DNA of 64,000 nt from Diphasiastrum complanatum (taxonomy: Eukaryota; Streptophyta; Lycopodiopsida; Lycopodiales; Lycopodiaceae). The stretch is from contig MU831952.1 in NCBI GenBank assembly GCA_029204225.1, forward strand, positions 30,958 through 94,957, given 5' to 3'. The position numbers were made by a program, and so were the translations under genes. The first letter of the stretch is position 1, and each line of letters opens with the position of its first letter. This document shows positions 28,001-43,000 of this stretch, piece after piece. The notes beneath the pieces were generated by a model, which saw only the letters and a list, made by a program, of their open reading frames with translations, had not been told where the DNA came from and ran no database searches.

Positions 28001-31000
28001 TAAGTACCAAAATGAAACAGCAAATGACATAGTGTCCATAGTGTATGCATGACCACGAATGAAAAATCCCCCGAAGAATATCCGTTTCAGCCCATAACGT
28101 AATGCATTAAGGTAGGCAATCTACATCACAAAAACACAATAAAAATAAGACTACATTGCATGATGAACATAACTATAAAACAATGAGCAAAGATTTATTG
28201 AAACAAGTGCAATACGTAGAGAAGGGCCTGTGCAATATGTAGAGAACTAAGAGTCAAAACGTTGGGAGCATTCACTTGGACATTGAAACAAACTTTGTTG
28301 TTCTTGACACTTGTGGAGTTCCTTCAATTCAATTCCTTGACCACTTGATCTTACTCATGGAACCAACATGCAGACAAATAAGACTTATAAGAACTTCCAG
28401 GAGTCCTCCTTGATACTTCGCAAGTTCCCTTTTTCTCTTTAAATAGCAAAAAACTACAAGGAAAACTTCAATCATTGATTGGACTACACAATTTACCAAG
28501 GACTAGTTCCTAAAGCTCTTTCAAAGATTAGGTTCCTCCCTAAGTAGAACCTTTGATGCTGCATGTGTTTCCACCTCCTTAGGGTTAGATTTGCATTTTT
28601 TGGTAGTTTAGGGATAGATTTTGATGATTTGAGTGATTTTGATTGGATTTCCTGATAGTAATCACTTGAGATTGATGAATAGAGAAATGGATACAGTACA
28701 CTAGTGCTAAGATCCACTAAGTGAAACTAATATGACACATTGTTAATTCATTGAAAACTTACATCAAAGCTGCAAAGAGAACAAGAGTGGAAAGCACAAA
28801 CCACCAGCCTTTTCGCTACATTATTAACAAAGCATTGTTAGAATCCTGAGAATGAGGTATGAACCTAACAATCTTGTTCTTTGTGGAACGAACAAGATCT
28901 TGACAAATCCCATAAAAATGCAAGTGAGGCATCTTTCAACTAAATGAATCGCTTTTCAAAAGGTATAACTTGGACTGGTTTAAGGATTTCAAATCCTGAA
29001 AGCCATTGTCACAATGGACCAATGTCACCACTCTTGTTCTTTGTGGAACGAACAAGATCTTGACAAATCCCATAAAAATGCAAGTGAGGCATCTTTCAAC
29101 TAAATGAATCGCTTTTCAAAAGGTATAACTTGGACTGGTTTAAGGATTTCAAATCCTGAAAGCCATTGTCACAATGGACCAATGTCACCACTCTTGTGGA
29201 TGGGATACATAACATTGGTGCACCATGACAAGGAAAAGCCATAGACAACGGTTTGTTGAGAAGGGTGGCGAAAAGGTGAACGGATGTCAAAATACTGGCA
29301 ATCCTCTATCCTGACTCTCATGTGTCATAAAGAACATAATTCCCACATGAAATGAAATATGCTAAATGTGTTGTAGCTGATGAGTGGATGCCATTACAAA
29401 TCCACACCCCAATGCATACATGGTGTGGACGGCAACCCAGGCTACTCTGTCACAAGTACTTTGAATCCCTTTGCCTAATGTAAATAGTAAGTTGTAATTA
29501 TTAGATCGTAGATGGCTGAGTCACTGGCCTGTGGAGTCAATTGTAAATTGCAATGTAAATAGTGAGATGGCCAAGGGGATACTGGGTCCCATGAGAGTCT
29601 GCTGGACTGACCTCCTAAGAAGTAGGAGGGTTGATCGGTCAACGTGACATGTCATATGCTCACTAAGACACTCAGTCCAATGCATGAGCTTTTGCAATAG
29701 ATTAAGCATAACATGAATAAAAATGATCATGTCTAAACAGAAACTAATAGGAGAGCTTACACAAAGAAGCTTGAATGAACCAATTATCGAGAATACATAT
29801 CGATTTATCTACAATGATAAACCTCATGTAATATCATGAGATAAGTGTTTGAAGAAAGTCATGATGGTGGATAATGGAGGGGCCACAGGTCGTAGAGGGC
29901 ATATATTTTCCTACATAATAGACCTAACCATCTGCCCCACAACTCTTTTTGACCACTCTTCCATTTGTTTTCAGATGAGTTCTATCCACACCATCATCAT
30001 CTGTGCCTCATGCACTTTGCTACAGATTCAGCACCCCTCATCCCTCAATACCAAATGACCTCTCTCTCTCTGCCATCGCGCTCCTGCAACAGCCATGCAC
30101 TAGGCAAATGGCCAGACTCAACAGTTCTTACAGTCAGTGATAGCTGCCTGTCAGCCAGCCATGGCTGCCACCTTATTGCAACAGGATTGCTCCATGGCTC
30201 CTCTCTCTCAGAGCACCATCGCTCCTCAGCTACTTGCCAACGGAATCAGCCAGCAGGTTGATCATTTTATTCTACTATTTTCTTGTTGCCACATTCATAA
30301 ATTCTCAATAACAGGATCCGCTGATGGATAGGGTTCCGCTGGAGAGGTTGATGGATAGAGTTCCGCTGGACAGGTTGATAGGGAGTCAAGCCATCGCTGC
30401 AGCACCTCCAGCAGACCTCCTCCATGCCAAGAAAGAAAGGAGTTACCCCCTCCTCTTCTCCCATGCCATGCACTGACGCTGCAACACAGCGGCAGTTTGT
30501 AGCTGAGACACCGCAACAACAGCTAACTGTTGTAGCTATGACAACGACCTAAATTGAAAGATACCAAGATCTTTTTGGATGAAGATCTCACCTTTGTTCA
30601 AGTTGGGGAACGCAAAAAAGCCCTTCAAGAAGCCAAAGACACTGGTAGACGTATGATTTACAGGGATGGTATCGTTCATTTCGTTCCATTGGGTCCAAAT
30701 AAAGGCGTGTAGTGCCATAGTTTTTTGAGTTTAAATTTGAGTTTGAGTTTGAGTTTGAGACTGAGAAATGAAGAGTTTTCCAGTTGAACCTGTAAGTGGT
30801 CTCTGTACCACATAATCCTGGAGTAATGTTGGATTCTAGTTAGATTCTGTTTTGACGGCATTGACCCGCCGTCAACTGTCTATCATACTTGGATGTACTG
30901 TGTTGTCTTATATGCCTTTTGGCATGGAAAAGACATTAAAAGTTCTCTCTCTCTCTCTCTCTCTCTCTCTCTCTCTCTCTCTCTCTCTCAGCAATGGCTG

Positions 31001-40000: not shown

Positions 40001-43000
40001 ATCTGATCATAAGCTTCCACAAACAGAAACTTGCTGTCCCTGTCCGTACTTCAGAGCCTACAACCTGCATTTCACACGTGTGAAGCCATAGCAACAAAGA
40101 AATCACAATTCTAGTGGCTAGAATGCAAGATATGAACAAAAAAGTGAGAGAGAAGAAGATGGATCTTCAAAGAGCATAACATTCATTCAATAGAATGAAA
40201 ATGAGATGTGTACATACTCGTGGAGATGGCTATTTATAGCAGCCATAGTGCCTCTTGGCCACTTGTCTTATGATAGGCTAAAATTGGGGTCCAATAGGAT
40301 TCACCCATCTACCTAGAAATTTGGTCAAATAGGAATGCACCAAATTATGAGCCAATAGAAGAGCTCCACACTCGACCTCCTCTAATTAATGTGACCTCAA
40401 AAGTAGTGTACACATACTTTGGGCCTCTACATACATGTATGAACCTATCTCTAACTTTTATTTGGCCATAGGCCTACAAAATCTCAAGTTAGGAAAATAC
40501 TACTAGTTGACAATTTTTCACATGCACCTCCCAGCATTACCCAGCAGCTAGACCTCTTCGTCCTACCACGAGGAGACGACCCTCTCAACATTTGACATCG
40601 GCAGCATATCTCAGTCTCACTGCCCACTGCAGCTTGTATTACATCTTTTTTCAGTAGTAGCAGCATCACTGCCAGGACGCGGCTTGCTTCCATTATACAT
40701 AGCCATTTCTGGCTTCATACATGTTGGTTTAGTTAACTTTGGTATTTGTGTTTAGATTTATTATATATGCTTTTCTTTCAGTTTTGGAGACGTTTTTCAT
40801 ACGCTCCCAGATGGTCCACATACTTGATATGTACTTATTTGCCTTATATGCCTTTTGGCATGGAAAAGACAACAATAAAGCTCTCTCTCTCTCTCTCTCT
40901 CTCTCTCTCTCTCTCTCTCTCTCGAGCATATCTTCATCGTACATGGCAAGGCCAGTTAGGGGTCAAACCCGACTATTACAGGACTCATTTCTTGGAGAAG
41001 GATGCAGTGGGGACCCCAATTCTACCACGCTATTTAGACTCTAGATTATCCCATGGTCTGAGATTCACACTAGGTCAGTTACGAGTCTCATCACGTCAGC
41101 TTGAGATTGAGGTTGGACGTTTCCATGGTACCCCACGAGAGGAGCGGATCTGCCAAATATGTTCGCTATCTGAGGTGGAGTCCGAGGAGCACTTTTTATT
41201 CAGATGTCCAATCTACTATGAGATCAGAGGGAGATACCATTGCCTTTTTCGAGATGCTCCGGTCACACTGCGGTCCCTTATAGCATATGATGATCCACGA
41301 TGCGTTGCACTTATGATCAGAGAGATGTTTTTACTACAACATGACCTATGCCAGCCACCGACTCATCTTGACACACAGCTCCAGATCACATTGTGTCTCC
41401 CGACAAGATTTGAAGTAGAAAGACACAAAGCTCAAAAATGTTAGCTCAAAAAGAGTGAGCTTTAGCATATCCCAGAGAAATAATCGGTCTACGAATGTAG
41501 GGAACATCGCGTGGGGCAAAAAAAAATTGGGTCCTTTCCCAACCTTGACCAGCAAGCAAGTCTACGAAGTGGACTCAGCCACATAGAGAACCACATTTGC
41601 ATCAATTAGCAGGATGTAAGATCAGAAATTTATGGTGTATTATTAGAATACGACAAGTTACTTATTGGAACCCCTTCAAGTAAATGCTGGCTAATAGCAG
41701 CAATTGGGCTCAATTACAGGGACTATCTCAAATGAAGCAAAGAGATGGTCAATCAAAACAGGGTGAATTGGAGCTACCTTTAGTCCAGTATTGCAATATA
41801 TGTTTATTGCCAAGTTAACCAAACGACCAATGAAAAAACACAAAATAAGTACAAAGCCAACACAACACACAAACACGTTGATACTTGTCCAATGTTGTAC
41901 GATATCATTCGCAACAGCGACAAGGCAATATCCTCTCTTCTGTAACCAGAAAGATCCTTCTCATCTGAAATAACTTTTCCAAAGCTTGATGCTATGGTAG
42001 AAGCTGATAGACCTATCTGTTCATAAAAAACATCAATCAGTACATCATCTCATTCCAACATTCTCTTTTACTATATCTATTGGCCATTCAAACTCATGAC
42101 CCCGAAAAAATTAAACATATTCACATCACAATTCTCTGGATTTATGTAATGAATGGCAAGCCGTCAAGCACATCATCACCTTGGTGTAATCAAGGCCACC
42201 ATAGATATCTCCAACAAGCATATCAACTGAACTGTTATCACCTCTTTGGCTAAGCTCCAATATCTCATCGAAACTGACAACATAAGAAAAATGTAAACAC
42301 TGCTCTGTAGATGGCCGTATCACTCTCACTCTTTTCTAGGTAAGTTTGTAGTTTCCAAAAACAACAGTTTTAATGTTTTTTTGAAGGAAAAAAAAGCTCT
42401 CTCTTCAGGAGTAATGACCTCAAATATGAATCTCATGGAGTCATATGCAAATAATTAATAATAGTCAACTAGCAAGATGTATATAGATGATTAGAGTCTG
42501 AGAACACAAGTAAAGCACGCATAACAATCTAGCCACCTAAAGATAATGCTATAAATACAATAGAAGAACTTTTACAGAAAATAGTAGAAACTCACTTCCT
42601 GCACTTGGTAAGAAGACGGCCAAGACCCCAAAAAGTGCCTCCACCAACATTTGTACCACTTACGCGCTGAAATATCCCATCTCCATCAACCTAAACTCTT
42701 CATTAAAGGCGATTGCCAACAGTTATAAAGGATCAAGGAAAACTAACACCAGAAAGCAAGCGTCAGCCTCAATCAACTTTCATAAAAGAAATCTTGAGCA
42801 TAACTGACTAATATGCTTGGCACTGATCAAAACATAAACCAGCTACGGACATTTTGTTGGGAAATCTGCTATCATGGAAGTCGTTTGCCACTTACCTTGA
42901 TCATGCTAACACCAGAACCAATATTTACTAAGAGATATGGAAACAAATCATTTGGATCAATCTGGACAAATTGCTTATGGCCTTCCAGATGCGTAAAGGC

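Follow-up and report, generated by a model that had tools for sequence, protein, structure and literature searches.

The 64,000-nt stretch of Diphasiastrum complanatum DNA analyzed here (the window; contig MU831952.1 of assembly GCA_029204225.1) carries nine pieces of long interspersed nuclear elements (LINEs), of which eight lie on the + strand and the ninth on the − strand. Seven of the nine stand in two head-to-tail chains in which the CT repeat that closes one piece leads straight into the next. We consider serial target-primed insertion into (CT)n tracts, mostly the elements' own tails, to be the best reading of this arrangement, at a probability of roughly 0.57.

Anatomy of the two chains

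Chain 1 consists of five non-LTR (long terminal repeat) retrotransposon pieces on the + strand (E1–E5, 30072–41392), and chain 2 of E6 and E7, also on the + strand, with a joint of the same kind. An earlier note on this DNA had described five same-strand LINE copies following each other head to tail, and this description holds: all five are LINE-like, lie on the + strand and have CT at four of four joints, and a sequence scan found the CT tracts where the note had placed them. On the + strand, the joints are formed by (TC)23 between E1 and E2 (30944–30989, pure), (TC)26 between E2 and E3 (31692–31743, one A interruption), (TC)55 between E3 and E4 (32444–32554, one G interruption), (CT)21 between E4 and E5 (40881–40923, pure) and, in chain 2, (CT)30 between E6 and E7 (2033–2093, pure). 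Including the (TC)37 tail of E7 (3536–3609, +), which gives way to (AC)n with no LINE, the tracts at joints and tails measure 43–111 bp; four of the six are pure and two contain one odd base each. Each of the six LINE 3' ends found runs into CT, and in five of the six cases a further LINE piece follows the tail immediately, across two separate chains, with all five joints in one orientation and none inside a LINE body.

The 5' ends at these joints are sharply placed. Aligned with a second LINE copy, E2, E3 and E5 each match it from the very base that follows the CT tract, while the second copy extends further upstream, so that 5' truncation of these three pieces is directly visible from their partner copies. 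In E4, protein similarity starts 36 bp past the CT tract, and no partner copy covers the first bases of E7. Long CT tracts flank four of the nine pieces on both sides (E2, E3, E4 and E7, not E1, E5, E6, E8 or E9).

The coding content of the pieces was assigned by protein comparison. E3 (31744–32443, +) comprises the C-terminus of open reading frame 2 (ORF2) and a 3' untranslated region (UTR), and its ORF2 C-terminus is 80% identical to the D. complanatum protein P0121. The same protein is the best organism-named match of E5 (40924–41392, +; 74% identity over 93% of the query), an ORF2 C-terminus whose 3' end is lost. E4 lies in two parts on the + strand, the first (32555–34661) running from the reverse transcriptase (RT) to the ORF2 C-terminus with several frame breaks, and the last (40528–40880) consisting of 3' UTR. 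Its RT belongs to the RVT_1 family (PF00078, E 6.8e-23), which identifies E4 as a LINE, and the solved RT structures that it matches are of the R2 and L1 type; its protein matches bearing a plant name came from the fern Adiantum nelumboides and from Taxus chinensis and ranked below unnamed ones. The identification of E3 and E5 as ORF2 C-termini and of E4 as a reverse transcriptase copy in the earlier note was therefore correct. An ORF1 label for E1, E2 and E7 is tentative: a Pfam scan of two E7 frames gave no match, and a single-sequence fold intended to identify ORF1 was uninformative (mean pLDDT 32.8).

E1 (30072–30943, +), E2 (30990–31691, +) and E7 (2094–3535, +; frames that may be ORF1-like) are grouped with these LINEs because of their common 3' ends, which fall into two sequence types, A (E1, E4 and E6) and B (E2 and E7). 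Within type A, E1 and E4 are 88.7% identical over 53 bp at the 3' end and E1 and E6 67% over 250 columns, E6 (about 1785–2032, +) being a 3' UTR only; within type B, E7 and E2 are 84.6% identical over 65 bp, and a few TTC units precede the CT tail of E7. The first 98 bp of E2 match E1 at 30157–30254 (88.8%), and the two also share a 33-bp 3' stretch (81.8%). For the middle of E2 (31088–31640), none of the other LINE pieces in the window gave a match. E2 may therefore be a mosaic or a short relative whose head and tail are those of a LINE.

The aligned ORF2 blocks of E3/E4, E3/E5 and E4/E5 are 70–76% alike, and one further E3/E4 block reaches 60.5%; the pieces therefore derive from several sources, and probably from several insertion events. 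Segmental duplication of one unit was ruled out by the differing cut points and families at the joints, in agreement with the earlier note, which had argued against a single tandem duplication.

A two-part hairpin precedes the CT tail

A conserved stem-loop lies near the RNA end in five of the six 3' ends. In E1, E2, E4, E6 and E7 it takes the form of a two-part hairpin whose outer stem is GTCTT/AAGAC and whose inner stem reads either ATGCC/GGCAT or GTACC/GGTAC; a single pair is broken in E4 and another in E6, and E3 lacks the inner stem in the alignment. Scanning both strands of the window with a hairpin model recovered these five ends as strong matches (E1, 30905–30934, 46.8 bits; E2, 31653–31682; E4, 40841–40870, 44.1 bits; E6, 1991–2020, 42 bits; E7, 3479–3508, 40.9 bits; E 1.7e-08 or better) and placed the next match at E 0.32, all five having also served to build the model. 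Rfam returned no match for window positions 1700–3700.

The same geometry recurs in L003, one of eleven related loci (L001–L011), in which a 31-nt stretch chosen by eye folds alone into an outer stem GTCTC/GGGAC and an inner stem GAGCC/GGCTC and is followed by a (TTGA)5 tail. We aligned this stretch with the five window ends, leaving out E3, in which the inner stem is missing, and L001, which has the inner stem only. In the resulting six-row alignment, 58 of 60 cells pair, compared with 26–46% in slid versions; four pairs show double changes, a number reached by 5 of 500 shuffles, and the covariation score was reached by none of 500. Since the L003 hairpin precedes a TTGA repeat, the combination of a hairpin with some repeat behind it probably predates the CT tail. 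By analogy, a two-part hairpin with paired changes would be a hallmark of a 'stringent' LINE, with protein binding of the hairpin as a prediction. A hairpin-like stretch followed by a repeat of TAACCT units (L005:5481–5504), which may or may not be a tail, was also seen on a contig that carries a distant relative.

Proposed serial insertion and its alternatives

The proposed mechanism starts from an RNA that would close with the two-part hairpin and, behind it, the pyrimidine repeat (UC)n. Once the enzyme had bound the hairpin, a nicked (GA)n strand would offer a natural primer for the (UC)n end: the DNA end at the nick would pair with the tail and be extended by reverse transcription. Early arrest of cDNA synthesis would leave a 5'-cut copy, joined to the CT strand of the target, and the new copy would sit between CT repeats and bring a fresh CT tail. 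Since this tail is the next target, a chain would grow head to tail and in one orientation. The anatomy, the exact joints, the different families and the conserved hairpin are observed; from them we infer the nick and pairing, the binding of the hairpin, the type of endonuclease, the order of insertion and a genome-wide preference for CT. The LINE group is probably APE-type and includes shorter relatives with a common 3' end. A related locus, L002, shows a sub-threshold match to Exo_endo_phos (E 0.03), and the truncated copies of the window lack the endonuclease region.

CT tracts make up 556 of the 64,000 bases of the window (0.87%), and five of the nine pieces start at one. The chance of at least five doing so is about 8e-9 if the pieces are randomly placed, and that of five of seven about 2e-7 if they fall at random within LINE DNA of the same strand, both figures being uncorrected for the choice of a locus that was picked as striking.

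A number of observations count against serial insertion into CT. The CT tract that the earlier note placed ahead of E1 exists, but measures merely 12 nt (30060–30071, +), and the sixth case that it reported at 2033–3608 has a joint of the same type, but its first piece, E6, has no CT in front. No CT is visible before E8, a decayed scrap of an ORF2 C-terminus (4766–4852, +), and no CT or GA run of four units occurs in 29001–29600 around E9, a decayed − strand scrap (29184–29279) resembling the region ahead of the RT in E4 (70.4% over 98 columns). The note's central proposal, a LINE that inserts into CT, ranks above the other readings considered, with five joints in a single window behind it, but long CT is missing ahead of four of the nine pieces (E1, E6, E8 and E9). 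Two long CT tracts (24419–24489 and 24628–24725) have no LINE found alongside. The 11 related loci hold no stretch of five consecutive CT or GA units, so CT is not common to the wider group. A target duplication is not discernible within CT; the outer ends of chain 2 share just 7 bp, which 173 of 300 shuffles reach, and those of chain 1 have no common stretch of 8 bp or more. The hairpin, too, is weakly supported by the five window rows taken alone: of 500 shuffles, 22 equal them in percentage paired, 15 in covariation score, 146 in the number of double-change pairs and 351 in the number of pair types. Even with six rows, the count of further pair types did not exceed that of shuffled alignments, 226 of 500 of which reached it.

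Several of these points would fit ordinary clustering: a LINE with a slipping CT tail would favor nothing more specific than repeat DNA that is open or prone to nicking, its tails would be hit in the way that L1 hits poly(A) tails, and the window would be an unusual sample. E6, E8 and E9 have no CT ahead, two CT tracts are empty of LINE, and the TTGA unit of L003 means that a repeat tail is possible without a CT target. Such clustering leaves unexplained that all five LINE-to-LINE joints lie at tails, in one orientation and never in a LINE body, and we regard it as unlikely. The joints themselves are equally predicted by template jumping, in which the RT leaves one RNA and continues on the tail of the next during a single insertion event, so that the chain is one concatemer with each 5' end directly on the next tail and all copies in the same orientation. 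Tracts of 43–111 bp are long for RNA tails, and the copies belong to several families, 24–30% apart in their ORF2 blocks, which would rarely meet in one particle. Template switching in vitro by a non-LTR RT is described in PMC8857657; as an account of the present chains, we find template jumping, the chief rival, rather unlikely.

It is also conceivable that separate pieces were united at CT only after insertion, by recombination or slippage, or in the assembly, by wrongly joined reads, since long CT tracts trouble assemblers and slip readily. Such joining requires a LINE piece that already has CT at its 5' end, whereas the partner copies of E2, E3 and E5 show LINE sequence and no long CT tract at that point; we consider this account very unlikely.

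Serial insertion into (CT)n could be extended to a broader, tentative proposal, which we hold to be possible though clearly less probable than the insertion mechanism itself: a land-plant LINE group would target CT microsatellites by tail pairing and seed its own targets, genomic CT tracts would largely be its tails and landing sites, and short relatives of the E1/E2/E7 type would be carried along by the shared hairpin.

All eight long CT tracts of the window read CT on the + strand and none GA. One of them (24628–24725), together with the preceding 36 bp, is flanked by two direct copies of the 13-bp sequence GAACAGTACTGAA, which start at 24579 and at 24729; such a repeat around the tract (24579–24741) arose in none of 500 shuffles. 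The pair looks like a target duplication that encloses a very small insert with a CT tail but no LINE 3' end.

Comparison with known systems

Waldo, Mino, Kibi and Koshi are microsatellite-specific LINEs of animals. The earlier note rightly stated that such elements are known: Togen of fish, related to NeSL, resides in (TG)n according to PMC4640811. Four of the nine pieces, E2, E3, E4 and E7, likewise have one microsatellite on both sides and may be compared with these LINEs, but the latter are animal families, Togen has another endonuclease type, and most of the joints described here consist of tails that belong to other LINE copies.

The note had also stated that no such plant array was known. 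A literature search with narrow terms and limited coverage showed, among the titles and openings of abstracts listed, no array of plant LINEs within CT repeats. The Zepp and ZeppL elements of green algae (Coccomyxa, Chlorella and Chlamydomonas), however, nest in their own copies, building tandem arrays of mostly 5'-truncated 3' ends (PMC8226300, which calls Zepp an L1). Zepp elements occur in algal centromeres, as PMC11005252 indicates. Like Zepp, the window holds head-to-tail joints of 5'-truncated copies, five in number, for which we infer an origin by insertion; unlike Zepp, the joints are CT repeats, the families are mixed, and the case is known from one 64-kb window. The arrays of HeT-A, TART and TAHRE at Drosophila telomeres are likewise head to tail and in the same orientation, but have poly(A) tails and form chromosome ends (PMC10088271), in contrast to the CT tails here.

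Two stringent LINEs of zebrafish, ZfL2-1 and ZfL2-2, need their own 3' stem-loop (PMC4176376). The present elements share with ZfL2-1, ZfL2-2 and UnaL2 (same source) a conserved 3' stem-loop and repeat units in the tail, a likeness of general form rather than a base-by-base comparison of hairpins, and self-targeting is a proposal for the present elements. Target patterns of RTE elements are treated in PMC13295347, and the word microsatellite is absent from the main text of PMC2881922. The case would combine Zepp-like nesting, for which Zepp is a close precedent, with a microsatellite habit.

If the insertion reading is true, it would join a 3' hairpin read by the LINE enzyme, a simple-repeat tail and the choice of target, which are usually studied apart, in a plant system where the tail unit sets the target preference. 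Some CT microsatellites would then be understood as tails left by retrotransposons, and the case would illustrate how a Zepp-type LINE array may start.

Searches for further relatives gave little. Proteins reading through CT as SLSL, used to sample other tails, yielded 1373 candidates, none of them matching at E up to 10. Among viral contigs, the LINE 3' end had no matches, protein alignment for relatives gave 15 and then 22 stretches, none confirmed, and 73 stretches with a 40-nt CT run included no LINE match at E 1e-4. The contigs L001, L002 and L003, which carry LINEs and are probably eukaryotic, had been binned with cyanobacterial assemblies, likely as contamination; two RT proteins labeled Enterobacter cloacae complex look like contamination too.

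Other features of the window

E4 is split by a copia-like element on the − strand (34662–40522), with LTRs at 34662–35314 and 39870–40522 and an ORF at 35310–39302. The LTRs are identical at 653 of 653 positions, a 5-bp target duplication (TGCAC) flanks the element, and the ORF is one frame of 1330 aa, the label 'copia-like' coming from the earlier note and a reading of this frame rather than from a family search. The element looks like a very young insertion.

Elsewhere in the window, a long inverted repeat (10885–11327 and 19401–19842) has arms of ~440 bp that are 97% complementary and 8 kb apart. Tandem repeats lie at 6238–6925, 16408–17155, 28872–29197 and 47094–48430, with units of about 292, 288 and 160 bp and with 106-nt units that form a loose family. 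The scrap E9 overlaps the 160-bp tandem repeat at its end.

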